Assembly (NCBI GenBank): GCA_030248135.1
Contig: JASANC010004851.1
Coordinates: 1-64,000 of the forward strand
From: Theristus sp. LFF4_11
Taxonomy: Eukaryota; Nematoda; Chromadorea; Monhysterida; Xyalidae
DNA length: 64,000 nt
Direction: 5' to 3'
The position numbers and the translations under genes were made by a program. Shown piece by piece: positions 1-62,039 of the stretch; the first letter of the stretch is position 1; each line of letters starts with the position of its first letter. A model generated the notes under the pieces. It did no database searches. It was not told where the DNA came from and saw only the letters and a list, made by a program, of their open reading frames with translations.

Positions 1-971
1 GGTCAGAAAATTATGACTAGCTGCATACCTTGCGTGCTAGCCGAAAGGTCTTCAAACAAGGACCGAAGGAGTCAGGCACTGACTCCCTAGCCTAATTGAC
101 AACCCTGAAGTTGTCATAAGCAGTTTTTGATAAAACTGGTTTCTGCGTGCAGGAACCAGTCGCCTTATCAAGCACACCTGTTGGCAATATGGCCGACAGA
201 GCATGCTTCTGATAGAGTGCACCGGCCAGGTACACTCAATTTTGGGGGAATGTCCGGTAACTAATTACCGTACACCTCATTTGAAATGGGTTTTGAGGAG
301 AATGTCCTCTAACCCTGCAAAAGAGAAAAGACAACGCCATTAATCGTTGTCTCTATCGCCGAACATCGACGACGATTTTTATTTCTTCGTCGATATTTCA
401 ACGAATAATAATTCGACGATTATTCCGCCGACAAAAGCGACGAGCATAAGTATATTTTCACTGTTAGCATTGCACTAACCTTTTTTTTCCTTTTCCTAAG
501 GAAGATTTTATAAAAATTTAAATTTCAAAACTTTTTTATAAAGTTCCCACCAAATTTGCTGGTGGCTCACTTCGAAAGAAGTGAGTCTCCAGCTAAAAAT
601 CGTCCTTTTGTCGGGTCGGGCTTGAAAAATAGCCCATAAGCCCCGACAGAAGGAGGGGGGTGAAAATTTCGGGGCCCCCTATTCAAAAACTCCAACCAGG
701 GAGTAAATTTTAAGGCAAATTTGCGACATCAGAATGTCGCTGTTTGACACAGAAAGCAGAATGCGTTTAGCATTCTGCATATTGAGAGCACAAAGGGGCG
801 AATGAGCCCTGCTCACTCAAAGAGATCGGCCGGGCCGATCAGTAATGCGCACAATTAGTGCGACCTTTTGTTTGTGTGTTGCGTGCACTTGGTATAGTGC
901 ACAAAACACCGTTTTTGCTTCCACTCTGTGTGTGTTTGTGTCTGTTTCAGGCTCAACATAATTCATATTGA
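1..971 (+). other. Non-coding leader of the retroelement, dense in hairpins
   Basis: No plausible coding frame is present. Perfect stem-loops follow one another: CCACCA/TGGTGG at 547-552/560-565; CTCACTTC/GAAGTGAG at 566-573/578-585 closing a GAAA tetraloop; GCGACAT/ATGTCGC at 723-729/734-740; GCAGAATGC/GCATTCTGC at 756-764/770-778; GATCGGC/GCCGATC at 824-830/834-840. A good 3' splice-site-like string (pyrimidine-rich, TTTCAG) ends near 949, just before the long frame opens at 972, so the downstream ORF may be expressed from a spliced or trans-spliced RNA. That last point is inference. Confidence 0.5.
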
Positions 972-1445
972 GCAACAAACACAACAACAAATAATAATTG
1001 TTGCGCGCACGAGCCCGCGGGGCCGCTGAAACACACCACGGAGGGAGAGCAGCCGCCGTCGACCGGGACCGCCGTTCCTGCCGCCGCGGCGTTGGGCACG
1101 TCGGCGACGACGCCGACGACCGCTGGGCAACCAGCGGATCAAGATGGGTCGCATCAAGGCGGCGACCCATCCCGAAATGCCATGGCAGTGGTTTCGACCG
1201 CTGCTGACGGCAGCCATAGTGAGAGTCCGTCACATTTGGTGATGGACATCAGTGGTGAGGGAGCCACTGATGATAATGCTGCGGCAAATGCCGCAGACCA
1301 AAATCCACCGCCACCGGCGGATGGAATTGTGAATCCCGCCGATGACGGCGCGGATGATAACGTCATGGAGCATGACGATCAGCTTGGGTTGGAGGAACCC
1401 ATGGAATACCAGGTGGCTGAGGCCCCGCCCTCCGGTTTTCTTTGA
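972..1445 (+). CDS. N-terminal open segment of the giant element ORF (acidic, low complexity)
   Basis: The frame is open from 972 to the stop at 1443-1445. The first ATG is at 1182 in a good context (CCATGG); upstream codons in frame are open but lack ATG. The translation from 1182 is acidic and rich in Ala, Asp and Pro. It is in the same frame as the 2090-codon ORF that follows. The stop lies at the edge of a G-homopolymer-rich stretch (1446-1510) that looks like poor consensus, so this is probably the true N-terminus of the same protein, separated by sequence errors or by a real mutation. Hairpins continue here, for example a 10-bp stem with arms at 1143-1152 and 1162-1171. No domain recognised. 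Confidence 0.4.
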   Translation, partial: ATNTTTNNNCCAHEPAGPLKHTTEGEQPPSTGTAVPAAAALGTSATTPTTAGQPADQDGSHQGGDPSRNAMAVVSTAADGSHSESPSHLVMDISGEGATDDNAAANAADQNPPPPADGIVNPADDGADDNVMEHDDQLGLEEPMEYQVAEAPPSGFL

Positions 1446-1510
1446 AAGGGGGGGGAAACGTCGCGCGGGGGGTTTTGGGGGGGCGGCTGGGTTTAGGGGG
1501 AAGGGTCCAG
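1446..1510. other. G-homopolymer block, probable assembly damage
   Basis: Runs of seven to eight G separated by short T and A runs interrupt two open segments that share a frame. The composition is unlike both flanks, and the local hairpin pattern is lost here. Similar G or C blocks occur at 41640-41770, 59911-59932 and 60961-61440. A consensus or gap-filling artefact is more likely than biology. Confidence 0.5.
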
Positions 1511-1517
1511 AACGCTA

Positions 1518-4500
1518 GTGGAGACTTATCCACTAGCAATAAAAGTAAGCCAGACGGACTCTGAGCAGCATTGCAAAGAGACCGTCATGGTCTTCGTGAG
1601 AGACGATCGGGATCAGTTCCCGAACGTATCAGAAGGTTGGATGAACCTTGCCAACCTCAACAACTGGGTCGTGTTGCCCAGTATGGAGAACTACCGGCCG
1701 ATTGCCGCGATTCGCGCCAATCGCCAGTATTTCTTGATGGACGACAATGTCGTCATGACGGTCTGGGCGACTAAAAACCGCCCAGACAATTTGAGCGAAG
1801 CCGAGCTCCGGTTTCGCATTCATGCACCAAGGGGCACTCCAGGCCCTTGGGTTGATCTGCAAGCCAATTTGCGGCTTACACCGAAAAACTTATTCGCGTT
1901 GTCGCGAGTAACGTCTCAGTGGTCCATTACGGACTTCGGCAACGACTACCCCACAGGTGCCGTCCACCTGTTGGTGAATAGTCTGAAGTCAAAAGCACCA
2001 AGCCCCCGCTTGGTGATGTATGCGTTCGCAGCAGTCTGCGACCCGATAGCTTCGTCGCTGCAAATTCCGCAGTATGACGAAGATTATTTGGATGCCGACA
2101 TGTCTGTCTGGCCCATGACATTGATCCAGCTGATGGATTTCAGCGAGCAGATCAATTTGGAGCACCAATTTTTGGTGCATGGTCACGCCTCGCTCGCGAA
2201 AGAGCAGACGTATGTTGTGCCACGCGGAAATTTTCTGCATGGTCAAATTAGGCCGCATATGCCGATATACACAAAAGGCATGCGACGTCATAGGGACAAT
2301 CCGAAATCGGAAATTCTCCCGAATTTGAAACAAACGGGGACCACCAAATTCCCGTTTGATTTGAACGAATCACTGTTGGAAAACAGTGAACGTGATAAAA
2401 TCGCTGATGACCTTGTTTGGCAACAGCGTGTTAATGTCTGGCTGATGCTAGACCAGTTGTACAAGCGCACCGCGCCTTGTTTTGAAGGTGGCAGGGACGA
2501 TCTGCCACAAGTTTTGCTGCAGCATCACGAGTATGAGGCCCTCTGGTCCTCTCGTGAAAGCAGCTATACACGCTCGGAAGCATTCCGGCGGCACTCACGA
2601 TTGATCGGTCGTGAGATTGGTAAGGCTGAGGCCGTCATTTGGGTCACAGACCTGAATGAAAACCAACTCGGTGAGTTGGTGGATTTTATGCACCAACAAA
2701 TGTGCACCATGAATGGTAATGCAGTGCTGCATTACACGTATTTCGAGCCGGATAAGAAGTATCCCGCTCCTGCAAACGAACAGCAGGAACCTCGGTTCCG
2801 AGCTGCCTCGGTTAGAGCCGGGAAGGGCTTTTTGATGAACGTCAAGTACCCCTTGACGGTTTTCTTCGGTGTGGGCGCATACTGCGTCGCCATCGATTTG
2901 AGCTTGATCTTTGATCCGCTCTTGAGAAAAGAGAACAGTACGAAGGTGACTGTTCTGTTGGAGTTCCTGTTGAACAAGGAAAACACGTTTCACCATTGGG
3001 ATGACCCAACGGAATTTTTCAAAGGCATGAATGCTGCCTATTCTGAAGACATGAACAACACTCCGTTGTTCGATCAGGTCCAATTCGAAAATCACCTGGA
3101 CACACGTCCATTGGTGAAAGCGATTGGATTCGCCAACATGATTGACGCAAGGCCATACCGGTTTGAGCCGTATGGTGGTAATTATGTGAGCCCAACACCG
3201 GGAACGGTGTTGACGGCATTCACATGCAAATTGCACGATCTCGTGCATTTCACCATGTACGGGTTTGAGAGGAATCTCAAATACCCGGAAGGTTCATGGG
3301 ATCAAAATGCGATCTCACAGAAACGCCATTTGATCGAATGGCATAAAGATGCAGGCAAGCATTATGCCATGCAGTTCAACTGGACAGTGCTCGTTTACGA
3401 CGCACTGTTTTTCTGCTTAGCGTGCAGCGACAAGTTCGCGACGCTATCACATAAACCTCGTTCGAAGGGCGAGGTGAATCAGAGGTACAACAAGTACCGC
3501 GCCGCTATCGACGTGGGCTTGGCGTACCTGCAAAAGGCCGAAGAGTGGCCGTTTGATTTCGTGCACAAGATGCCGATAGTCACGCGAGATCTCTCGCTTG
3601 ACAAGATCTTGAGCAACGAACCGATGCGTCTGATCTTCGCTCAGACATTGATCGAATACGTACGCGCTGTGCGCTACGTAGAGAAACACCCTGCGAGAGT
3701 GATCGCAGGGACGAACCCACAAGTTCCGCACGCGGTGCCTCGCGTGCCGGACGAGACAAACAAAAACAGGTTCCAGCCTGCTTTTCGTTCTGACAGGCAT
3801 CTGATGATGCACCAATACGTCCTCAAGAGGGAAACCAAATTGAGGAGATGTTACATTCTTCAGTTGAAAGAATGCTCGAAATCGGCAGCATACACGCCGT
3901 ATGCTCTGTATAGCACGGCAGAAGTTTTTCTGCAGTGGTTCAAATACCGACTCCTGAAGTCGACTATTGGCATTGTGATGACCAATGCATCAAGCGACTA
4001 CGCCTATCAGCTGGCGAAAGTCGTGTACAGCAAGTGTGCTGAAAGACGCACACTGTGTTTCATGCGTGTGGGAGGTCCGCACACATGCAGAGGAGGCTGT
4101 CAGCCGACACCGCCGACAGAGTTCGAATTGCAGCCACACGTGCCTGCAAGCTATCTGGGAAACCAGATGGAGAAAAGGACTCCATGGTTTAGCGTGGAGT
4201 TTATCAAGGTGGGCCGCCGCTTTGACGACCCACACAAAAAGCATCTGCTTCACAAGCAGAATCAGGTCATTAGGACGCAAAGAGAGGCTGAGTTTATCGC
4301 TCAGGCTATTAGAACGCCAGCCAGTTGGGCCGGTTCGTTTCACATCAGTGAAATTGAAAGGTTGAGTCACTTTGGTGTGATACCAAAGCCAGATTTGATG
4401 GACGTAAATCCAACGTTTGTGTCCACGAAATGGCCGCATGCAGTGATGTATGCGTGCACTAATGACGGGGTGTACCCGCCTGGAATCACTCCTGACAATG

Positions 4501-7500
4501 TGTCAGAAGATTGGCGACGTCGTGAGACGTCGGAGCCGACGCATGTCTACGAAGACTTTGACATGCTACACGCTCTGTCCTGTCGTATGAACATCAGTAC
4601 GACAGATTTGATTGAGTTGCCGCTGAACATGCAATTCAGCTACGAAGACGTCAAAGCTTTGACGTTGGCAATTTTGGTGCGTGTCTCAATCGAACGCATT
4701 TTGCACCTGCTGTATCAGCATGGTCTGGAAAGGTATGAGCGTCTGATTCAGAAGCTCATCGATTTGAACAACCTAGTGCCACAAACGGCACGAGGCACGA
4801 GCACTCGCACGAGTGTGTTTCGTTTCTGGAATCCGTTCGTGTTCGACATTCCAGCCAAAAGGAATGACCACCAATCAACGTGGCATTCATTGAAGCCCGT
4901 CTGCGCACAACAACTGTGCGACAGTGACGAGTACAATCTGCTGAAAGACATTGCAGCAGCACGTGCATGGTGGACCGTGTTCCACCATCATAAAACTCTG
5001 CCGCTCAGGGAAGAGCTGCAGGAAGCGATTGTGCTGGGTGACGAAGCCCAGAAGAAAGCACTGATCGAAAAGATCAGAGGTATGGTTGCAGTGCCGACAG
5101 CACCTGCAAGAGATCCGGTTCTTGAAATGCGTCAAGAACGATTCACGGCCGACGTAGAGGCCCAAGCGGCTGTGAATCCACAGCAACCTAATGTGCGTGC
5201 CATTGAGCAGCAAGAAAAGCAACCGTTGTCGGTTGAAGATCATCCATCCTCGGATGCACAAGAGCAATCGAGTGCATCTGAAGATGACGACAGCCAGTCG
5301 CAAGTTTCTACGACTGACAATCCACAGCAACAACAGGGTGCTGCACAACAGGGAGCCTCACGCTTCCGAACTCTCACACCGAGAGCACAAGTGCTCGTAC
5401 AAAAGTACGGCCAAGTGCTGCAGCCACCAGCGGCGCAGCAATATCAACAACAGTTTCCGACTCCGGCAACTGTGGCACCAACGGGAGTAACACCCAGGAT
5501 GCCATTTATGCACACCACTCGTGGTGTCAGTTTTGCAGCCGCGGCCGAAAACCGTGCCGCGCTCGATCAAATGCAGCGCGTGTCGATCCTTAGACCTCGA
5601 CTGCCTGCTCCAGATTCTCAAGGCTTCAAAGTGCCTTATGCAAAGCAATCGCGTTCAGCGCGATCGCCGTTGCAGGGAGCCCCTCCAGCAAAACGGGTCC
5701 CTGGACAAGTTCTTCAACGAGAAGAAAGTTTTTCGGGTGAAAGTAACCCGGGCAGAAACCTCCCGAGAGGTCGTAAGCGCAGTAAGTCTCGTGAACAGAG
5801 ACTGTTGCTGCAACAACAACAGCAGGTGGAACAAACCTCTGCTGATTTTATTTATTGCCCAAAACGCAATTATTTGACGCCTCCGATGAATACATCGCAG
5901 GTTGATGATCTTCGTCACTATTACGAAGGTGCAGTGGTGAACCACGAGCTGGTTCCCGAGTTGTCAGAAGCCGTGTACCAAAATGCACAGGCTAAACAGA
6001 CACCGATCACGTTGTCTGATGCAGTGTCTTGCAAAGTGGTGCAAGACAATAAGAGAGCGCAAGAATACATGCGCCCGACCTATGACACACTGCCACGACC
6101 AGTGTATGTGAAAGATCGCAAAACAGCGAATCTGATAGACAGCTCACCGGAAATGGAGAAACGGCGAGCAGATTATTATGGCAAACCGAAGCCATTGTTG
6201 ACAACGGACATCCTACCGTTGGATGCGCCATCATGGTTCGCAGTGCAAGACTTGGGCACGCGAATGAAGGAGAATCCAACAGGATTCCTTGGGGATGCCA
6301 GACGTCAGTCTGCATCGCACGTCGCTAACACGATCAAGTGGCTAGCGTATTTTGTGTCACTCAGTGAACAGGAAGAATTCAACGGCGATCCGCCGGATAT
6401 TCGTTTGATTGGTGCTGGAACACCAACAGAAAACCTCATTCGCATGAGAATTCTGGCTCAAGCAGAAGCTGAGCGAGAAACACGCACAAATGTGCAACTG
6501 CACTCTGTGCTACAACCTATGTGGTTGCCGCCACTGCCGGGACCGCATCGTTATTGGAACGCGAACGAACAGAACGCGTTCGTGAAAAATTTCTCGGTCG
6601 AACCGAGTGCAATGTTGGAACCAGGCCTCGTTGAGGACCTGAAGAAACCGAATGTGCCTAAACTCACATTCCTTGATGCTGTGCCACCGCCGAAAAAGGA
6701 CGACGCACAGGAGAAAAAGAAGTCGAGGACGGTGAAACCGAGTCTCGAAATGCCAAAGAAGCTCGACAAACTGATGTCGGAGCAAAGAAAACGATATAGC
6801 AAGAAAGCTACATCGTATCAGCTGCCTAAGAAGACAGTCGAAACCAGTTCGACACGAACTGATGGTGATGACACCGAGGAAATGCAATCCGGTGACGAAA
6901 ACGCTGAAGCAGAAAAGCGTCAGCGAGAACTGCTCGAACAGATCAGTTATGATCCGACGATCACATGCAGTGCATGTGGCAATAAAGGACATGAACACTC
7001 AGTGTGTCCACTGATGTACATGTCGCTCGAAGCGGACGCAGCTGAAAAAGCCAAAGCGTCTACAAAATCGGACACAGCCAGTTCGATGACTAAAAAGCAG
7101 AAAAATGCTGAGAAATTGGCTGCACTTGCGAAAGCAAGAGAGGCCGAGAGGCTGGCTAGAGAAAAGTCAGCTCGTGAACACGCGGACCCAACAGCCGCTC
7201 AGAAAGCTGCCAAGTCGACAGCAAGTCAGGTGACTGATCAACAGTCACAACAAAAACAGTTGAACACAGCCAGTTCAACTGGTCAGTTTGAAGACACAGG
7301 CCCAATCGATGTATTGGAAGCTTGTCGGCGTCTTACGCTGGAGACTCTGCCGCAGAGCAGACCGACAGCAGGAGACGCCCCGAAAACACAACAACAATCG
7401 ACTGCCGTTTCGACAGCCGCTGATGCACCGTCGGGCCAGGCGTCGAGCGCCAGTTCAGCGCGCGTCTCGGTCCCGACTGGACACCGCTCACGCTCGCGTG

Positions 7501-7790
7501 GCAAGAGCAGAAGCACGTCGCGATCGAAGTCGCGCCGTCAGCTGCCGCGAACGACATTGGTGGCGTCACCGCCGGCGTCGGGCTACAGCACGTCCGACGA
7601 TGAAGATCGACCGGCGACTGAGGCACCGATAGAGCAGCAACGGCGATCGCGACTGCAGACCGACCCGCCGACCGCGTCGCGCACGGACAAAGACTCGTCG
7701 AAGACGGCGTCCGACGCGAGCGCGTATTCGACCGACGGCGGCAGACGGGTTGGCACGCCACGAGGCAAGGGGCGCGGCAGACGGAAGTGA
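1518..7790 (+). CDS. Giant 2090-codon element protein with CCHC zinc knuckle and Arg-Ser-rich tail
   Basis: Uninterrupted frame. Position 1518 is a GTG, and the first in-frame ATG is 1587; the true start probably lies upstream across the damaged block. About the first 1200 residues look globular with no family I recognise. Residues about 1200-1450 are Gln/Pro/Ser-rich with basic Arg-Ser clusters. Near residue 1815 (nt about 6961-7015) is a zinc knuckle with spacing C-x2-C-x4-H-x4-C, as in retroviral Gag nucleocapsids and in cellular RNA-binding proteins. After it come an Ala/Lys/Glu-rich, coiled-coil-like stretch and an Arg-Ser-rich tail (about 1960-2090). A C-terminal knuckle plus basic tail suggests a nucleic-acid-binding, Gag-like role (inference). 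No protease, RT or integrase motif was seen. The coding DNA carries perfect hairpins every few tens of bases. The frame has no stop over 6.3 kb, so the copy is recent or under selection. Confidence 0.7.
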   Translation: METYPLAIKVSQTDSEQHCKETVMVFVRDDRDQFPNVSEGWMNLANLNNWVVLPSMENYRPIAAIRANRQYFLMDDNVVMTVWATKNRPDNLSEAELRFRIHAPRGTPGPWVDLQANLRLTPKNLFALSRVTSQWSITDFGNDYPTGAVHLLVNSLKSKAPSPRLVMYAFAAVCDPIASSLQIPQYDEDYLDADMSVWPMTLIQLMDFSEQINLEHQFLVHGHASLAKEQTYVVPRGNFLHGQIRPHMPIYTKGMRRHRDNPKSEILPNLKQTGTTKFPFDLNESLLENSERDKIADDLVWQQRVNVWLMLDQLYKRTAPCFEGGRDDLPQVLLQHHEYEALWSSRESSYTRSEAFRRHSRLIGREIGKAEAVIWVTDLNENQLGELVDFMHQQMCTMNGNAVLHYTYFEPDKKYPAPANEQQEPRFRAASVRAGKGFLMNVKYPLTVFFGVGAYCVAIDLSLIFDPLLRKENSTKVTVLLEFLLNKENTFHHWDDPTEFFKGMNAAYSEDMNNTPLFDQVQFENHLDTRPLVKAIGFANMIDARPYRFEPYGGNYVSPTPGTVLTAFTCKLHDLVHFTMYGFERNLKYPEGSWDQNAISQKRHLIEWHKDAGKHYAMQFNWTVLVYDALFFCLACSDKFATLSHKPRSKGEVNQRYNKYRAAIDVGLAYLQKAEEWPFDFVHKMPIVTRDLSLDKILSNEPMRLIFAQTLIEYVRAVRYVEKHPARVIAGTNPQVPHAVPRVPDETNKNRFQPAFRSDRHLMMHQYVLKRETKLRRCYILQLKECSKSAAYTPYALYSTAEVFLQWFKYRLLKSTIGIVMTNASSDYAYQLAKVVYSKCAERRTLCFMRVGGPHTCRGGCQPTPPTEFELQPHVPASYLGNQMEKRTPWFSVEFIKVGRRFDDPHKKHLLHKQNQVIRTQREAEFIAQAIRTPASWAGSFHISEIERLSHFGVIPKPDLMDVNPTFVSTKWPHAVMYACTNDGVYPPGITPDNVSEDWRRRETSEPTHVYEDFDMLHALSCRMNISTTDLIELPLNMQFSYEDVKALTLAILVRVSIERILHLLYQHGLERYERLIQKLIDLNNLVPQTARGTSTRTSVFRFWNPFVFDIPAKRNDHQSTWHSLKPVCAQQLCDSDEYNLLKDIAAARAWWTVFHHHKTLPLREELQEAIVLGDEAQKKALIEKIRGMVAVPTAPARDPVLEMRQERFTADVEAQAAVNPQQPNVRAIEQQEKQPLSVEDHPSSDAQEQSSASEDDDSQSQVSTTDNPQQQQGAAQQGASRFRTLTPRAQVLVQKYGQVLQPPAAQQYQQQFPTPATVAPTGVTPRMPFMHTTRGVSFAAAAENRAALDQMQRVSILRPRLPAPDSQGFKVPYAKQSRSARSPLQGAPPAKRVPGQVLQREESFSGESNPGRNLPRGRKRSKSREQRLLLQQQQQVEQTSADFIYCPKRNYLTPPMNTSQVDDLRHYYEGAVVNHELVPELSEAVYQNAQAKQTPITLSDAVSCKVVQDNKRAQEYMRPTYDTLPRPVYVKDRKTANLIDSSPEMEKRRADYYGKPKPLLTTDILPLDAPSWFAVQDLGTRMKENPTGFLGDARRQSASHVANTIKWLAYFVSLSEQEEFNGDPPDIRLIGAGTPTENLIRMRILAQAEAERETRTNVQLHSVLQPMWLPPLPGPHRYWNANEQNAFVKNFSVEPSAMLEPGLVEDLKKPNVPKLTFLDAVPPPKKDDAQEKKKSRTVKPSLEMPKKLDKLMSEQRKRYSKKATSYQLPKKTVETSSTRTDGDDTEEMQSGDENAEAEKRQRELLEQISYDPTITCSACGNKGHEHSVCPLMYMSLEADAAEKAKASTKSDTASSMTKKQKNAEKLAALAKAREAERLAREKSAREHADPTAAQKAAKSTASQVTDQQSQQKQLNTASSTGQFEDTGPIDVLEACRRLTLETLPQSRPTAGDAPKTQQQSTAVSTAADAPSGQASSASSARVSVPTGHRSRSRGKSRSTSRSKSRRQLPRTTLVASPPASGYSTSDDEDRPATEAPIEQQRRSRLQTDPPTASRTDKDSSKTASDASAYSTDGGRRVGTPRGKGRGRRK

Positions 7791-8652
7791 TTGTCGAAGA
7801 CGACAACCGTTTGGATGGCACCACCGCCATTTGATGGACAACGACAGCGTCGTTGCCCGGCTGGACACTGAACACTGGACACTCTGGTGAAAAACGTTGT
7901 TTTTCCGTTTTTGTTTTTGAGCAGGCGTTGCTTGCTGTGTTCACGTGCCATCTTAGCCGTCTAATGCCTTCTGCCTTTTGTCACAGACGTTGTCTGTTGA
8001 CTGTTGTTGTAACAGTTTTGTTACCTTGTGCCACGCTTGTGTGCTTGTTTTGAGTCCCTTTAGAGGGCTGGTAAAGGTAATTTTAATGCTTTGCCACAAC
8101 ACTAACCCAACTTCGATTCCAACAGTTTTTTTTCTTTCGTGATTTTTTTTGTGATTTGTTGTTTTTCGTGTTTGTAAAACACTCTAATAAAATAACACTT
8201 GTTATTTTCTCACTCACACTTTCGATGTGGTAACATTGAGGGGAACAACCACACGCACTGTCGCATGTGGCCCCGATCACCATTGTGATCTATTTTTGTT
8301 TGTGTTTCTACTAGTTTGTTGTTTTGCCGGAAGTGTTTGTTTTCATTTTTTTTACTTACACGTTTTCTCAAACACAGATCCTTAAGTCTGTGTATTTTGA
8401 AGCATTCGTGCTTGTTAAAAGTCATAGGCGACTGCACTGTTGTATTCGCCCTTAACAAACAGTTGTAATCACCAACAAAATCCACAGTTTTCTCCACTCT
8501 TTTATTCACCGTTTTTCACACCACATCTTTTCAACAACAATCACCATCAATTGTAACAATACACAATAGTGTAGCGTTTCATAAACGTTACTCTTTCACG
8601 TCCCACATTTGTGGCCTCGTGGAAGAGGCCTTTTTAAAGGGGGGGGGGTAGT
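7791..8652 (+). other. 3' untranslated region of the retroelement with polypurine tract
   Basis: No coding frame of note. Hairpins continue, for example GATCAC/GTGATC around 8275-8290 and ACACAGA/TCTGTGT near 8374-8396. GGCCTC/GAGGCC at about 8611-8628 is followed by a T run. A purine run dominated by G (about 8635-8648) sits directly before the TG that opens the terminal repeat, the expected place for a plus-strand primer (polypurine tract). Confidence 0.5.
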
Positions 8653-8745
8653 TGTCAGGTCCATACAACGACCGTGTCAACCGCTTCCAACGTTTCAACG
8701 CTAAACTACTCTTTTATCTTCACCAATCTCTACCTTTATCTATTC

Positions 8746-8754
8746 TTTTATACA
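8746..8754 (+). promoter_or_regulatory. TATA-like box in the LTR
   Basis: TTTTATACA about 95 bp into the terminal repeat and about 115 bp before the AATAAA. Placement fits a retroelement U3 promoter; no experimental support. Confidence 0.35.
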
Positions 8755-8863
8755 AACTCATCTATTCTTTGCACATTGGTTGATACGTGATGTGTGTCTT
8801 TTATCAGTGTCTTCCTTTGTGTGCTCACATTATTCTACACTTCACTTCTTCATCGCCTTGACC

Positions 8864-8869
8864 AATAAA
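8864..8869 (+). terminator. Polyadenylation signal in the LTR
   Basis: AATAAA in the middle of the terminal repeat, downstream of the TATA-like box, as expected at the R/U5 boundary of an LTR. Confidence 0.45.
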
Positions 8870-9296
8870 ATGCACAAGTATGCGACTTGTTCGGCCGAAG
8901 CCGTCTACCGCCTACTATTAAGGCGTATAGGCGTCCAGGCGATTCAAGGCGTCTAGGCGACAAGGCGTCTAGGCGATATAGGCGACTCACTCGCTGGGCC
9001 CCTATTGGTACCAGTGCCGGTGAACGGTTCGCCTATAACCGTTGTCTTGTGTGCGACATTCGCGCAGCGATGACTTCATCCAAGTCAGTTGTCTCCAGTC
9101 TGAAAACTCAATGTACAACCCGGTCAGAACAAGTGAGAGTTGTTCCGCCGTTCGGTCAACATGTGAGTGCCCTGTCAGGCCATGTGGCAGATGGTCTACA
9201 GTTTGGTACGTTGACTCAACGTCCGAAACCGCTGCCTCGGGCAGTTGATGTAAAAGCAACCACCCCAGTGGCAGTGGGGTCGGGCGTTGCTTCACA

Positions 9297-10363
9297 ATAG
9301 TTTTGATAAAAAGTTCAAGTTCAAGTGCACTCGACTCCAAAACTCCATTCAGTCAGTCGGTCAGTCCATCCATTTTTTTAAAACAAATCGCGCTTCCGAA
9401 ATCAGAACGAACACACCAACGAAACTCAGATCAGCGAAACTCACTGGAATTTGTCTGGAAGCGGCGGTGGCAGTCGCCCGCCGACGCTGTCGCGAAAGAG
9501 CTTTGACATGGCGCGATGCGACTGTGCTGGGCGGGCGATCACATGTTAGACGCTGCTGCAAGTGGAAGAACAGACCTCTCAACGAAAACGTCTTTTATCT
9601 TCGTGGAAGCTGGGCTTGGTAAAAAAACCGGTTTTCAATTGGTCAGAAAAACCCGATTTTATATTCGTTTAAAAATGTTTTATTTCCTAATTTTTCCCTG
9701 TTCGTATGTCATACAAAAAAAAATAGAAGTCAAAGTGCTGTAGTAGGGTTGTGGCCTTGAGAAAGCTGGCATCTTTCTGATTGGTTGGTCGTTTTATTTT
9801 TGTTTAGTTTTTTATTTTGTTTTGTTTTAGTTTTGTTAATTTTTGAATGTTTGACGGATTCATCTGAATGAAATGCAACATTGATTACAATTTTTGTTTT
9901 TGAACATATCATTGTTCATTGTCATCAATCATTGATCACACAACGTTTCACTCAATGATTCACACAACAATTCATTCACACAACGATTGCTACAACGTTT
10001 CACACCACGTTTCACACAACGATTCATATGAGGTTATAAGCAACGTTTCACTCAATGATTTATACAACGATTTCCCACACAACAATACACACAACAATTC
10101 ATACAACGTTCAACACAAAGGTTAACTCAATGATTCACACAACGGTTCACGCAACGATTCAGGTAATTATTTGTGGATGGATGCTGTCTCAGAATAGCAA
10201 CTGTGCCAAAAAGCTAAGCGATTCTGGTTTACATTATGCCAATAATGCTAAGCTACTTTTTGACACGTTTTCTTTTTCAAGAGTTTGATATGACCTTGGA
10301 ATGGGAAGGGCATTCAAAATTTTGAAACGACAGGTAAGTATTGAAGCAGAAAACTGCAACACA
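9297..10363. other. Gap between the retroelement and the TIL gene
   Basis: No convincing gene. Short open frames at 9303-9622 overlap in two frames and resemble no family I know. 9770-9850 is T-rich. The only structured part is the degenerate tandem repeat at 9918-10165. Confidence 0.5.
9918..10165 (+). repeat. Degenerate minisatellite of CACACAACGATTCA-like units
   Basis: A 13-15 base unit (variants CAACGATTCACA, CAACGTTTCACT, CAACAATTCATA) recurs about 15 times with scattered substitutions. The short open frames over it simply reflect the repeat. Confidence 0.7.
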
Positions 10364-49689: not shown

Positions 49690-51180
49690 GTTTTTCATTT
49701 TTCGTTTTTTAGGCCGATTTCGCATATGCTATTTCTACCGCCGATTCGCCCAAAATCGTCACGATTCAGTACCTAGAATTGCTCACGCAAGAAAACTGAC
49801 CCAAAAGACGTGATTGGCTCAATGAATTACCATGGAAAACACCGTTTTCTTGTTTTTCATTTCTGGACCGTTTTCGCCGATTTCCACGGCCGATTCGCCC
49901 GAAATCGTCACGATTCGGTATCTAGAGTTGCTCACATAAGAAAACTAACCCAGAATCCGTGATCAGCGCATTGAATTACTATGGAAAACACCGTTTTTTT
50001 TGTTTTTCATTTCTGAACCGATTTCGCCAATTTCCACGGCCGATTCGCCCGAAATCGTCACGATTCAGTATCTAGAGTTGCTCACGCAAGAAAACTAACC
50101 CAGAATCCGTGATCAGCGCATTGAATTACCATGGAAAACACAGTTTTCTTGTTTTTCATTTCTGGTCCGATTTCGCCATTTTCCACGGCCGATTCGCTTG
50201 AAATCGTTAAGATTCAGTACCTAGAATTGTTCACAAAAAAATTAACCCAAAATCGGTGATCAGCGCATTGAATTACCCTGGAAAATACCCTTTTCTTGTT
50301 TTTCGTTTATGGACCGATTTCGCCAATTTCCACGCCGATTCGCCCGAAATCGTCGCGATTCAGCATCTAGAGTTGCTCACGTAAGAAAACTAACCAAAAT
50401 CTGTGATCAGCGCATTGAATTACCCTGGAAAACACCCTTTTCTTGTTTTTCGTTTCTGGACCGTTTTCGCCGATTTCCACGGCCGATTCGCCCGAAATCG
50501 TCACGATTCAGCATCTAGAGTTGCTCACATAAAAAAACTAACCCAAAATCCGTGATCAGCGCATTGAATTACCCTGGAAAACACCCCTTTCTTGTTTTTC
50601 GTTTATGGACCGATTTCGCCAATTTCCACGGCCGATTCGCCCGAAATCGTCGCGATTCAGCATCTAGAGTTGCTCACGTAAGAAAACTAACCCAAAATCC
50701 GTGATCAGCGCATTGAATTACCTTGGAAAATACCCTTTTCTTGTTTTTCGTTTCTGGACCGATTTCGCCAATTTCCACGGCCGATTCGCCCGAAATCGTC
50801 ACGATTCAGCATCTAGAGTTGCTCACATAAAAATACTAACCCAAAATTAGTGATCAGCGCATTGAATTACCCTAGAAAACACCCTTTTCTTGTTTTTCGT
50901 TTCTGGACCGATTTCGCCAATTTCCACGGCCGATTCGCCCGAAATCGTCACGATTCAGCATCTAGAGTTGCTCACGTAAGAAAACTAACCCAAAATTCGT
51001 GATCAGCGCATTGAATTACCCTGGAAAACACCCTTTTCTTTTTTTTCGTTTCTGGACCGATTTCGCCAATTACCACGGCCGATTCGCCCGAAATCGTCAC
51101 GATTCAGCATCTAGAGTTGCTCACGTAAGAAAACTAACCCAAAATCCGTGATTAGCGCATTGAATTCCCACGGACTAGAC
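49690..51180 (+). repeat. Satellite array, about 148-bp unit, about 10 copies
   Basis: Each unit contains GACCGATTTCGCCAATTTCC, GGCCGATTCGCCCGAAATCG, CATCTAGAGTTGCTCACG and GATCAGCGCATTGAATTACC in that order. Unit starts fall near 49865, 50014, 50163, 50311, 50458, 50607, 50756, 50905 and 51054. Units differ by scattered substitutions. GATTTCG and CGAAATC are inverted within each unit. Confidence 0.9.
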
Positions 51181-56399: not shown

Positions 56400-56828
56400 G
56401 CCCACGGGTTCAGTACCGAAGACGTGGGGGGGTACGTACACCCCCCCCCCTAGAGCACCCGAGACCTCCGCGTGGGGGGTGGGGTCACGCGACACCAAAC
56501 CTTAAAACCTGAACACTGGACCATCCACACTCCTTTCGAAATTTGCTTGACACCCCACCCACCCCCCCCCTCACATGGACCTTAAGTTACAGTGCCAACC
56601 CCAAAAATTTTCTCGGACCATCCAAAAATCATGAACTTTTGCTTAAAAATCATGATTTTTTTGTCTATAAAGTCCAAAAGCTGAATATATGATAACTTGA
56701 CATTCTTCATTGTAATTTTGCCGCAAAATTTAGCGTTTTCCCTTCAAAATTTAAGCGAAAAAATATCATGGGTGGGGTGGGGGGGGTGTGCACCCCCAGA
56801 AATTTTTTTACAATAGTGCACCCCAACA
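56400..56828 (+). repeat. C-rich dispersed repeat G, copy 1
   Basis: Shares GAGCACCCGAGACC, AAAAATCATGATTTTT, GTCTATAAAGTCCA, GAATATATGATAACTTGAC and GCAAAATTTAGCGTTTT in the same order with 60950-61340. C and G runs make alignment and assembly uncertain. Confidence 0.75.
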
Positions 56829-57940
56829 AAGTGAACAACAAACAACTTGCAAGCGCAGTTTACGCGCTACATCGTGATTGTGCAAAGCGAACAACAAACA
56901 ACTTGCAAGCGCAGTTTACGCGCTACATCGTGATTGTGCAAAGCGAACAGCAAACAACTTGCAAGCGCAATTTACGCGCTACATCGTGATTGTGCAATGT
57001 GAACAGCAAACAACTTGCAAGCGCAGTTTACGCGCTACATCGTGATTGTGCAAGACGAACAACAAGCAAGTTGCCAGCGCAGTTTAGGCGCTACATCGTA
57101 ATTGTGCAAAGCGAACAGCGAACAACTTGCAGGCGCAGTTTACGCGCTACATCGTGATTGTGCAATGTGAACAGCAAACAACTTACAAGCGCAGTTTACG
57201 CGCTACATCGTGATTGTGCAAAGCGAACAGCGAACAACTTGCAGGCGCAGTTTACGCGCTACATCGTGATTGTGCAATGTGAACAGCAAACAACTTACAA
57301 GCGCAGTTTACGCGCCACATCGTGATTGTGCAATGTGAACAGCAAACAACTTACAAGCGCAGTTTACGCGCTACATCGTGATTGTGCAAAGCGAACAGCA
57401 AACAACTTGCAAGCGCAATTTACGCGCTACATCGTGATTGTGCAAAGCGAACAGCAAACAACTTGCAAGCGCAATTTACGCGCTACATCGTGATTGTGCA
57501 ATGTGAACAGCAAACAACTTGCAAGCGCAGTTTACGCGCTACATCGTGATTGTGCAAAGCGAACAACAAGCAAGTTGCCAGCGCAGTTTACGCGCTACAT
57601 CGTAATTGTGTAAAGCGAACAGCGAACAAATTGCAGGCGCAGTTTACGCGCTACATCGTGATTGTGCAATGTGAACAGCAAACAACTTACAAGCGCAGTT
57701 TACGCGCTACATCGTGATTGTGCAAAGCGAACAACAAGCAAATTGCCAGCGCAGTCGGACAACTTGCAAGCGCAGTTTACGCGCTACATCGTGATTGTGC
57801 AATGTGAACAGCAAACAACTTGCAAGCGCAGTTTACGCGCTACATCGTGATTGTGCAAAGCGAACAACAAGCAAGTTGCCAGCGCAGTTTAGGCGCTACA
57901 TCGTAATTGTGCAAAGCGAACAACAAACAACTTGCGAACG
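56829..57940 (+). repeat. 56-bp satellite array, about 19-20 copies
   Basis: Unit CAACTTGCAAGCGCAGTTTA, CGCGCTACATCGTGATTGTG, CAAAGCGAACAGCAAA, with two main variants (CAAAGCGAAC and CAATGTGAAC). The 62-73 codon frames over it come from the repeat. Three inverted units lie 1.1 kb to the left. Confidence 0.95.
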
Positions 57941-58790: not shown

Positions 58791-59904
58791 CGACCTCGGT
58801 TTGTATTTAAGCGACCTCGGTTTGTATTTATTGCACAGGTTTCACATTTTTTTGAATAGTTCCGATTTTTTTCAATTTTTCCCCTTTTCGTCCCTATAAA
58901 AACCGTTTTTAGGGTGCGGAGTAATTCGTATAGCAAAATGAACATAATATTCGAAATCAAAGATTTTGATTTGTATTTGTAACAGGATTTCAGATTCCTT
59001 GTGACCCGTTTTTTATTTAAAATTAATTATTAAAAAAAATTTCCCTCCTCATCCCCATCGCATACACGTTTAGGACACAATTGAAGCGTCGGGCAAAGTT
59101 CTAAATAAGATGCTTGAACTCAGCGTACCCGAAAGCCCCCCTTCTGTCACGGTTTCAACACTTGAGGTGGCAACAAAAAATTTTGGGGGTGTGAGGAAAC
59201 ACCCTGCCCGTGGGTACCCCCACCATCTCAAAATGTTCCCACAATCAGAAATTTTGTTTCAAACATCATGATTTTTCGGTTTCTAGGTGCCTAATATCCG
59301 CTAAATATAAAGTTGCGATGGGTTCCCCCATCTTAAAACCGATTAGCAATGCATCCGGTGCACTCTGCTAGCAGGCGATCGAGGCGAGGGAAAGGAGTCC
59401 CACGCCCACCCCCTCAAAAAAATTTGGCACCCCCACGGGTATGTTGGAACTCCCAACCTACAGTCGAACTCACTAAAATGTGGAATCAGCTGATTGGTCG
59501 ACCGAGCGGAGGCTGCTCACACTCCGCACCGTTCTTTTTTCGTGGATTTGGATTTTATTGAAACGTGTTTTTATGAATTTCCAGCACCCCTTTTGTGCTA
59601 AAAATAAACTCAAAGGTAAGAGACCGCGAAATTTAGAAAATTTTTATTCCACAGCTCAACTCAAAATGTATTTTTTGTTTAATGACGACGACGACGTCGT
59701 CGCTTAATTTTTGCGTGTACTGAAAAATAAAAGCCTGAAAGGAGTGCGCTGTGCATGGTTTGCTGCGTGCACCAAGTAAATGAACACAGCAGCTACCAAA
59801 AACAACTTGAAAACGGTGAAAATGAAAAATGAAAGCAAAGTCGTCGTCGTGTCGTCGTCGTCCGCGAAGTCGGAACGCATTTTTTCAGTTGCGGACAGTA
59901 CCGT

Positions 59905-60020
59905 GGGCGGGGGGGGGGGGGGGGGGGGGTACACCTAGGGTTAGGGGAAAAAAAATCCGGATTTTTTTTTAAATTAAAAAAAATTTTTTTTTTTAAAAAA
60001 AAAAATTTTTTTTTACAAGT
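59905..60020. other. Homopolymer block, probable assembly damage
   Basis: About 20 consecutive G (59911-59932) followed within 30 bp by long A and T runs. Similar G/C runs recur at 60961-61120 and 61300-61440, and A/T runs at 60860-60945. Confidence 0.5.
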
Positions 60021-60949
60021 TAGGTTTGTTCGAAGCGTCTCGTCGAGCTGAGTTCATCTAGACTATTTTCAGAACGATCCGGAAAACTATAAGAGCGAAA
60101 ATCGTGTTTTATTGAAATTATGTCCATTTCATAGAGGGAAAGTTGCATTTTCAACAGTAAAACAGGACAATTTTCGACGTGTACTTGAATATTGAACCGT
60201 TCTTAGTTGTTCCTCTTTAGAAAATTACCAAAATTTGACTGTGTTCAAAAATTCCTGTTTGCTGTAGCTAAGTCGGCAACCCCTGTCGACCCGGTCGCCC
60301 CCCCCCAAGACACTTACTTTCAGGTTCAACCAGCTATGCTATCTGCCACATGGCGAGAGCCCACTCTTCAAATCATCGTATCGAAAACACGTACCATGAT
60401 TTCGCGATCACGTTGCGGGCAACTGACAGACGCAAGTTTAACACGTTAGTTTAGCTCAGCACGCAAGTTTTAACATGTGACCATATGTGGTATTAACCAA
60501 CATCCCCGCTCCAATTGTTTAACAATATATCGCACAACTCCATTGTAGACCTATAACGTACGCCAATCAACAAGATATCATGTTCATCTCATGGCCTACC
60601 GACTGAAAAAACATGTTCTAAGTTGCAAGAAAACGATTTCTGAAACGATATTTCAATTCAGTTAAGTCATTTCAACGCTAAAAATTGACTCTAGATGTCA
60701 TCCAAATCGAAAAACATGGAGTACGTCGGTCAAAATGACCAAATAATGACATGTACCTAAGCACACAAAGAAGTTGGGAAGAAAATTTGGTTTGAACTTT
60801 CAAAAAATTATGCCATAAATCGAATTTTCAGAGCAAAGTAGAAGAAAAATTTTTCAAATTTTTTTTTTAAGTTTGAAAAAAAAAATCCAAATTTTTTTTT
60901 AAAAAAAAAACGAAAAAAAAATAAAAAAAAATTTTTTTTTTCAAAGCCC

Positions 60950-61340
60950 CTAACCCTAGGTACACCCCCCCCCAGAGCACCCGAGACCGTCGGGTGGGGG
61001 GGGTGGGGGGGCACCGTGCCACCCCCCCCCCTAAAACCGGGCACCCCCCCCCCCCCCCCCCCCCTCGAAAATTTGGCCGACACCCCCCCCCCCCCCCCAT
61101 GAAATTTTGTCTGGCGGACACCCCCCCCCAAAATTTTCTGCACACCCTAAATTTTTTTCGAAAATCATGATTTTTTGTCTATAAAGTCCATAATATAAGC
61201 TGAATATATGATAACTTGACCATCTTCATTGTAATTTCAACGATTTTGCAGCAAAATTTAGCGTTTTTCCTTCAAAATTTAAACGAAAAATTATCATGGG
61301 GGGTGGGGGTGGACCCCCCCCCACAGAAAATTTTGAAAAA
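60950..61340 (+). repeat. C-rich dispersed repeat G, copy 2
   Basis: Same ordered blocks as 56400-56828, inside the 2.4-kb TIR element. Confidence 0.7.
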
Positions 61341-62039
61341 TGCACCCCCCCCCCCATGGGATGGGGGGGGTCCCACGTTACCATAGGTTGGACCCCCCCT
61401 CACTTTTTGGTCGGCACCCCCCCCCACGGTCCTACCCCCCCCCTCGAAATTTTTTTTGGGCCCACGGTACTGGTTGCGGACGCATGTCGATCGGTCAGCT
61501 ACAGGTGTAGGAATGAAACCCCCTTCAGCTGGCTACACAGCGCACTCATTGCAGGCGTTTGTCTTTCAGTTCACACGTAAAAATTAAGCGACGACGTCGA
61601 CGTCGTCGTCGTCAGTAAAAAATGCATTTTGAGCTGTTGAATAAAAAAATTGAATTTCGCAGTTCTCCAACCCTTTGAGTTTATTTTTAGCATGAAAAGG
61701 GTGCTGGAAATTCACACTCATTCAAAAGAAACACGATTCAATAGAATCCAGATCTACGAAAAAAGAAGGGTGCGGAGTGTGAGCAGCCTCTCCTCGGCCA
61801 ACCAATCAGCTGATTCCACATTTTATTGAGTTCGACTCTGAAATAGAAGCCTAAAAATGTCCGTCATCTTCGGTACTGGGAGTGGGAGTGAAGTTGAGTT
61901 TTTGCATGCAGCTTTCTTTTCGATTCAATTGCCTGATTTCGGTTTTATCTTTTCTTTTGGTTCAAAAATGTTGAACAATTTTAATCCTTCAAAATTTAAA
62001 TTATTTCTTGGTCTATAGTTTCTGGTTTGAAAACCTTTT

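Follow-up and report, generated by a model that had tools for sequence, protein, structure and literature searches.

In the genome-scale ordered RNA structure (GORS) of RNA viruses, folding energy lies far under that of shuffled sequences along the coding sequence, and RNA folds rely on pairing within the sense strand, where G.U pairs are tolerated. Pairing of another kind has been found in the mitochondrial genes of Nematomorpha, in which perfect coding inverted repeats of up to 284 bp are dynamically gained and lost; the authors suggest repeat conversion (PMC6649704). Template-switch mutation by polymerases was also proposed to create and perfect RNA stems (PMC8794818). Here we describe a Ty3/Gypsy long terminal repeat (LTR) retrotransposon that is saturated with short perfect hairpins, and whose 3' half lies at positions 1-9296 of the first 64,000 nucleotides of contig JASANC010004851.1 of the nematode Theristus sp. 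LFF4_11 (this whole stretch is referred to as the window).

The element resembles Ty3/Gypsy in its TG...CA LTRs, its polypurine tract and, as seen in a complete relative (B), the order Gag, reverse transcriptase (RT), RNase H and integrase. It differs in its length of ~19.9 kb, a first open reading frame (ORF) of 3,220 codons in relative B, an extra orphan frame of ~2,090 codons (ORF-B) and its hairpin saturation. Like GORS, by its usual definition, the element has folding energy below shuffles throughout, but its excess is strand-symmetric, strictly local and makes no use of G.U, and its positions turn over. Like the single-stranded RNA (ssRNA) phages MS2, PP7, AP205 and GA, our control (6.4 versus 2.9 stems per kb), it has an excess of local stems; in the phages, pairs are energy-ordered with G.U above A.C, whereas the element's half shows no such order at about 17 stems per kb. 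It shares with the Nematomorpha palindromes perfect inverted repeats gained and lost within coding sequence, and with template-switch stems a perfect, energy-blind Watson-Crick pairing. It differs from the former in being a nuclear retroelement with arms of ~5-8 bp and no sign of conversion, and from the latter in that the multi-base, one-arm changes expected are not seen. No such element was described in the literature searched on hairpin-rich retrotransposons, quasi-palindromes, RT template switching, Nematomorpha genomes, GORS, silencing escape and giant nematode Gypsy elements, subscription papers being mostly outside that coverage; the nearest printed phenomenon found is the far longer Nematomorpha palindromes. 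We propose, with a probability of about 0.35, that selection maintains the hairpins so that the two strands alike can fold; such folding would protect the element's RNA against antisense small-RNA silencing.

Hairpin excess and architecture of the element

An earlier note on this DNA had described perfect stems following each other almost without gaps, and the claim was confirmed. With a stem defined as a perfect inverted repeat with arms of 6 or more and a loop of 3-15, positions 1-9297 hold 156 stems, as compared to a mean of 27.4 (sd 5.8, maximum 47) in 100 dinucleotide shuffles; the counts are 68 versus 6.8 for arms of 7 or more and 25 versus 1.9 for arms of 8 or more, and eight stems in 1-10000 have arms of 9 or more. 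Within ORF positions 1518-7787 there are 101 stems, while 200 synonymous-codon shuffles gave 22.8 +/- 4.4 with a maximum of 33 (15 versus 1.3 for arms of 8 or more). Chance and codon composition were therefore rejected as the cause. Direct repeats were rejected as well, since 7-bp direct repeats reach 1.2-2.9 times expectation (highest at spacers 6-8), far under the inverted excess. Folding of the sense strand in 200-nt tiles gave a mean z of -3.32 over 46 tiles of 1-9297, 80% of which lie below -2, and a mean of -0.55 over 150 tiles of 10001-40000. An Rfam scan gave no RNA at gathering score. All eight hairpins that had been named are exact: on the forward strand 566-585 (8 bp, GAAA loop), 1143-1171 (10 bp, 9-nt loop, the longest of those named), 1761-1787 (9 bp) and 3193-3212 (8 bp, 4-nt loop), together with 756-778 (9 outer perfect pairs), 1827-1850 (7 pairs), 3689-3710 (8 pairs) and 8275-8290 (6 pairs).

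The texture is less even than the note had it when it spoke of the same hairpins in non-coding and LTR sequence. Coverage by stem bases, each value being set against one shuffle only, is 0.353 versus 0.065 in 1-1420 and 0.269 versus 0.109 in 7791-8652; the LTR (0.146 versus 0.073) has far fewer hairpins than the rest, and 7400-7800 is also hairpin-poor (two tiles with z of -0.4 and +1.4). The right border had been placed correctly, as the LTR ends at 9296. Neighboring host DNA, said to lack the texture, is near the shuffled level but shows a small excess (175 stems in 9298-48000 versus 144.1, sd 12.4, maximum 166 in 20 shuffles). A sequencing or assembly artefact might be suspected from corrupted-looking low-complexity tracts in the window copy and in a second copy, on contig C286. 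However, eight contigs hold the region at ~100% identity, copies of the element agree with each other at 98-99%, the excess persists under codon-preserving shuffles, and hairpin density is specific to a clade and close to that of shuffles in the host DNA on this contig; the probability of an artefact is negligible. The tract in the window copy (1426-1503, no strand assigned) is peculiar to it, the five other copies compared agreeing among themselves, and looks like a consensus error; dropping it leaves the count of 156 stems unchanged. In the C286 copy (L009), non-coding stretches contain runs of A, C, G and T that resemble consensus errors and differ between near-identical copies.

The element is a Ty3/Gypsy LTR retrotransposon, of which the window, being the beginning of its contig (C3072), carries only the 3' half; the retroelement that the note had placed at 1-9296 is thus indeed an LTR element with a long ORF, but just half of one, the remainder being supplied by other contigs. 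Its length is taken from relative B on contig C2891, a complete copy running from 1 to ~19,901 with LTRs 98.8% identical over 685 columns. The assignment is based on the first ORF of relative B (407 to ~10,066), which matches the Pfam families Retrotrans_gag (1.4e-07), RVT_1 (1.6e-36), RT_RNaseH (4.4e-34) and rve (2.9e-19) in the order given above, that half being absent from the window itself; among the pieces of relative B scanned, no Pfam match to a protease was obtained. On the forward strand of the window, the densest hairpins lie in 1-1517, the region that separates ORF-B from a pol ORF located beyond the left end of the contig; in relative B the ORF-B frame opens earlier and takes in part of the equivalent region. 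The hairpin-saturated ORF-B (1518-7790, 2090 aa) is followed by a 3' non-coding region (7791-8652) with many inter-copy differences and a moderate hairpin excess. A polypurine tract, read from the sequence as AAAGG and then G's (8636-8650), directly precedes the 644-bp 3' LTR (TG...CA, 8653-9296), which is matched by the 5' LTR in C286 and, in diverged form, at both ends of relative B. A genome search with 2001-3000 found seven more near-identical copies in addition to relative B. The LTR piece 8901-9296 had at least 43 genome matches (40 of 49 candidates scored), several of them 87-94% identical; some are on contigs with no interior match and are perhaps solo LTRs.

ORF-B appears to be an orphan protein. 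When scanned in thirds it had no Pfam or NCBIfam match, a 600-aa piece had no match in the PDB, and the search for homologues outside this genome, which covered residues 1-900 against 5.8 billion proteins, found none. Relatives were detected by tblastn in every lineage checked (C to H), and also in B. A C-x2-C-x4-H-x4-C pattern was read by eye at 6966-7007 (forward strand), which we take to be a zinc-knuckle-like CCHC motif. The predicted fold of a 699-aa piece, from eight sequences, has a mean predicted local distance difference test score (pLDDT) of 38.

Elsewhere in the window, a second stem-dense block (58-62 kb) consists of homopolymer and low-complexity sequence and is different in kind. 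Two stretches at ~59450-61840 seem by eye to be inverted around a low-complexity core, perhaps a foldback or terminal inverted repeat element, and 59900-61480 contains runs of A, C, G and T resembling consensus errors. Tandem arrays are present at 49731-51166 (149 bp, 9.7 copies) and 56827-57935 (56 bp, in rows of 16.6 and 3.2 copies).

Geometry and pair chemistry of the hairpins

The excess is limited to arms of ~5-8 bp, with spacers peaking at 4 nt and a whole hairpin of up to ~35 nt. For arms of 6 or more, the excess is highest at spacer 4 (9.1-fold), is 3.3- and 4.2-fold at spacers 1 and 2, and is absent at spacer 0, on account of which palindromic DNA and cruciforms were rejected; it vanishes past a spacer of ~25 nt or a span of ~35 nt. 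In hairpins with 3-5-nt loops, extension by a further Watson-Crick pair has odds of ~1.1 at pair two, 2.6-3.7 at pairs five and six, and 0.6-1.4 at pair nine, where cases are few.

Pair types were scored in ten pooled pieces from the hairpin-rich sublineages A (that of the window) to E, with loci L020, L024, L025 and L030 not pooled; eleven pieces, L022 being added, were used for the counts of G.U and A.C within stems and in the analysis giving stem GC. After four Watson-Crick pairs, the odds of a further pair relative to a mismatch were 2.41 for GC, 3.03 for CG, 2.38 for AT and 2.20 for TA, and 1.15 and 1.22 for GU and AC. The corresponding values in the four phages were 1.95, 1.77, 1.56 and 1.37, with GU at 1.20 and AC at 1.01 (1.24 versus 1.02 after three pairs). 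Within the stems of the element, 31 G.U and 55 A.C were counted (6.8 and 8.5 expected), and retained stems had 25 versus 43. The excess folding is strand-symmetric (sense -13.43, antisense -13.22; 156 windows, p=0.66); in one of six element pieces tested strand-wise the sense was favored (p=0.019), the others giving p of 0.14-0.76. Stem GC (0.484) is close to the background of 0.480, shuffled stems having 0.455. Beside four-pair stems CG outnumbers GC by 727 to 545, in nine of the ten pieces, but over all stem pairs the figures are 1179 versus 1149, and the orientation skew was not used as evidence.

It was suggested in the earlier note that selection for RNA structure might be responsible. 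In its usual form, selection would act on the sense RNA alone, through hairpins to which Gag or ORF-B would bind in packaging or through a GORS-like fold. The mean z of -3.3 across the window's half, the excess of GNRA loops in the sense strand, the presumed CCHC motif of ORF-B and the paired changes between A and B described below are all in line with this. However, G.U is not favored over A.C, sense and antisense fold equally, stem GC equals the background and GC at third codon positions (GC3) is under that of the sister lineages, and positions are seldom conserved once identity has dropped to 70-76%. In simulations, which were run on small samples of random sequence with strengths set by hand and are informative as to direction only, selection on the sense fold led to GU above AC, raised GC and sense folding above antisense. 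Sense-fold selection was thus rejected as the main cause on pair types, strand equality and simulation, and is in our view unlikely. What stands of the suggestion is selection on local hairpins, which fits the ORF polymorphisms and the paired changes. A G.U pair in either strand corresponds to a mismatched A.C in its complement, from which we infer that both strands matter.

Turnover of hairpins among lineages and copies

In the RT region, 14 of 16 loci were aligned over 2.9 kb, the partial L020 and L030 being left out. Sublineages A-E have 26-42 stems versus 7-9 in shuffles, whereas the sister lineages F, G and H have 12-16 versus 8-10, a weak excess. All but one of the 14 loci are free of in-frame stops, L024 having two; lineage F carries the same two long ORFs, and G and H parts of both. 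Seven other Gypsy-type loci of 1.3-1.5 kb each had no excess, with 23 stems in all as compared to ~30 expected. F, G and H group as a clade in the DNA tree. The rooted protein tree took in five of those seven outside loci, L036 and L037 being mutually close; in it the support for an A-E clade is 0.997, and the poor lineages contain the root, on nodes of 0.52-0.79. The simplest history is one gain of the hairpin texture on the A-E branch. Eighteen fixed residues in RT, RNase H and integrase divide eight rich from five poor loci, none of them in the YLDD motif.

Within the rich clade, the density of hairpins persists even as their positions turn over. At 86% identity 16-17 of 41-42 stems are intact, and at 70-76%, in another rich lineage, 0-7 of 26-42; the loss of stems from other copies, which the earlier note had counted as a point against itself, is thus found for individual stems and not for their density. 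Sublineages A and B were compared in five segments of 1-8652, with three overlaps of ~100 bases and with 5241-5414 skipped. Where both sides of an A stem have changed in B, pairing is kept in 63 cases and not in 45, as at 1761-1787 (three pairs altered on both sides) and in the 7-bp forward-strand hairpin 1953-1971 (two pairs), and one-sided changes gave 69 G.U and 65 A.C. The paired changes that the note had proposed to look for do occur here, and their excess over all RT comparisons is slight.

Among the near-identical copies, 281 variant positions were reduced to 76 single-nucleotide polymorphisms (SNPs) by excluding gaps, multi-allelic sites and variable non-coding stretches. The 62 lying in 1510-7960 were matched for codon position, type of change and synonymy: eight weaken stems where 21.6 were expected (p=9e-5), and 14 strengthen them where 6.4 were expected (p=0.004). 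In sense-strand terms, C>T or T>C changes make up 42 of the 76 SNPs of the A family (900-7960), and G>A or A>G changes another 14. Stem positions are less diverged at all three codon positions (0.176, 0.132 and 0.344 versus 0.238, 0.170 and 0.436) and singletons avoid stems, as would also be seen if stems arose at random and base-paired sites suffered less mutation or damage. This alone yields neither a fivefold excess of stems nor an excess of gains (14 versus 6.4), and as an explanation of the hairpins it is improbable.

The second mechanism put forward in the note, a polymerase that switches template and rewrites whole arms, did not hold up. All changes fell in one arm in 36 of 192 gained or lost stems as compared to 39.7 expected (0.188 versus 0.190), and in one of seven polarised stem changes versus 3.2; multi-base template switching was rejected because changes are split between the arms as at random. 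Change clusters explained by the local reverse complement showed no clear excess, the shifted null overrunning the alignment ends in places. These results concern arm rewriting and not the copying of single bases, and the strongest, serious rival to selection is a self-templating reverse transcriptase. In such a process the nascent strand, briefly folded back during reverse transcription, would use its own arm as the template for one or a few bases, and mismatches in small hairpins would probably be corrected to Watson-Crick pairs without benefit to the element. A pair enrichment blind to energy and wobble is what this would produce, and it accounts for that blindness better than selection does; the trait follows the element clade, as an RT property would, and polymerase template switching has been proposed to create and perfect stems (PMC8794818). 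In a toy simulation single-base self-copying kept both GC and strand symmetry, while fold selection failed to keep GC; the self-copying runs were among those that fell short of the element's stem density, and their spacer range was set by hand. On the other hand, one-arm clustering is missing, reverse-complement clusters show no clear excess, odds that fall near the ninth pair demand very short patches, and the depletion of SNPs is less well accounted for, as correction would presumably be too slow for fresh stem-breaking changes in the ORF. We consider self-templating quite conceivable, at somewhat less than one chance in three.

A proposed link between folding of both strands and small-RNA silencing

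The fall of the odds at the ninth pair and the SNP depletion favor selection over templated mutation, and selection rather than mutation probably drives the excess. Watson-Crick-only selection that is equal on the two strands fits a process in which both strands are single, such as antisense small-RNA silencing, which is predicted to be the selecting agent. With small hairpins along its length, the sense RNA would be targeted poorly by silencing and would also make a poor template for RNA-dependent RNA polymerase (RdRP), and an antisense guide from the same stretch would fold upon itself. Neither the element RNA nor the antisense small RNAs against it would then remain single-stranded, and each stretch would need some small hairpin but no particular one. 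Searches of the 159-Mb genome gave 50 Argonaute/Piwi matches, distributed over 15 contigs, and 23 RdRP matches, distributed over five; matches of both kinds are split as if by introns. No match to COX1 was obtained in the assembly.

Several observations weigh against selection on both strands. Over all comparisons among rich loci in the RT region, which are not independent, double changes still pair in 287 of 667 cases, little over one third. The drop in the odds at the ninth pair is based on 5-10 paired cases per loop class, and enrichment by span declines gradually with no step at small-RNA length. GC3 is 0.44-0.55 in the rich clade and higher, 0.53-0.63, in the poor lineages, which is not as selection for stability predicts, and GNRA tetraloops are in excess mainly on the sense strand (32 versus 11.7 expected; antisense 12 versus 8.2), an indication that the sense RNA plays a role. 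No depletion is seen among the 14 SNPs of 900-1420 (one gain, five losses). Singletons, with one loss among 22, and the stop-bearing L024, whose 22 private substitutions include no losses and no gains (5.3 and 2.0 expected), should be barely visible to selection, so that a lower mutation rate at paired bases, or errors that cluster, may play a part. Furthermore, simulated selection on the folds of both strands raised GC strongly (0.67, and 0.79 in stems), unlike the element, which tells slightly against selection and in favor of self-templating. The fuller proposal, that the clade armours its whole genome with hundreds of tiny both-strand hairpins as a position-free counter-defence written largely in synonymous codons, is one that we hold as doubtful, at about one chance in four.

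The element offers a natural experiment within one genome, in which one clade of related giant retrotransposons is hairpin-saturated and the others nearly not, while the lineages compared have open reading frames and, where checked, the same two long ORFs. A pattern that is Watson-Crick-only, present on both strands, local, limited to ~8 bp and free of position fits neither ordinary structured RNA genomes nor described palindrome mutagenesis. It would reflect either a counter-defence that spans the whole genome of the element or the work of a reverse transcriptase that introduces hairpins into the genome encoding it, and both are directly testable.

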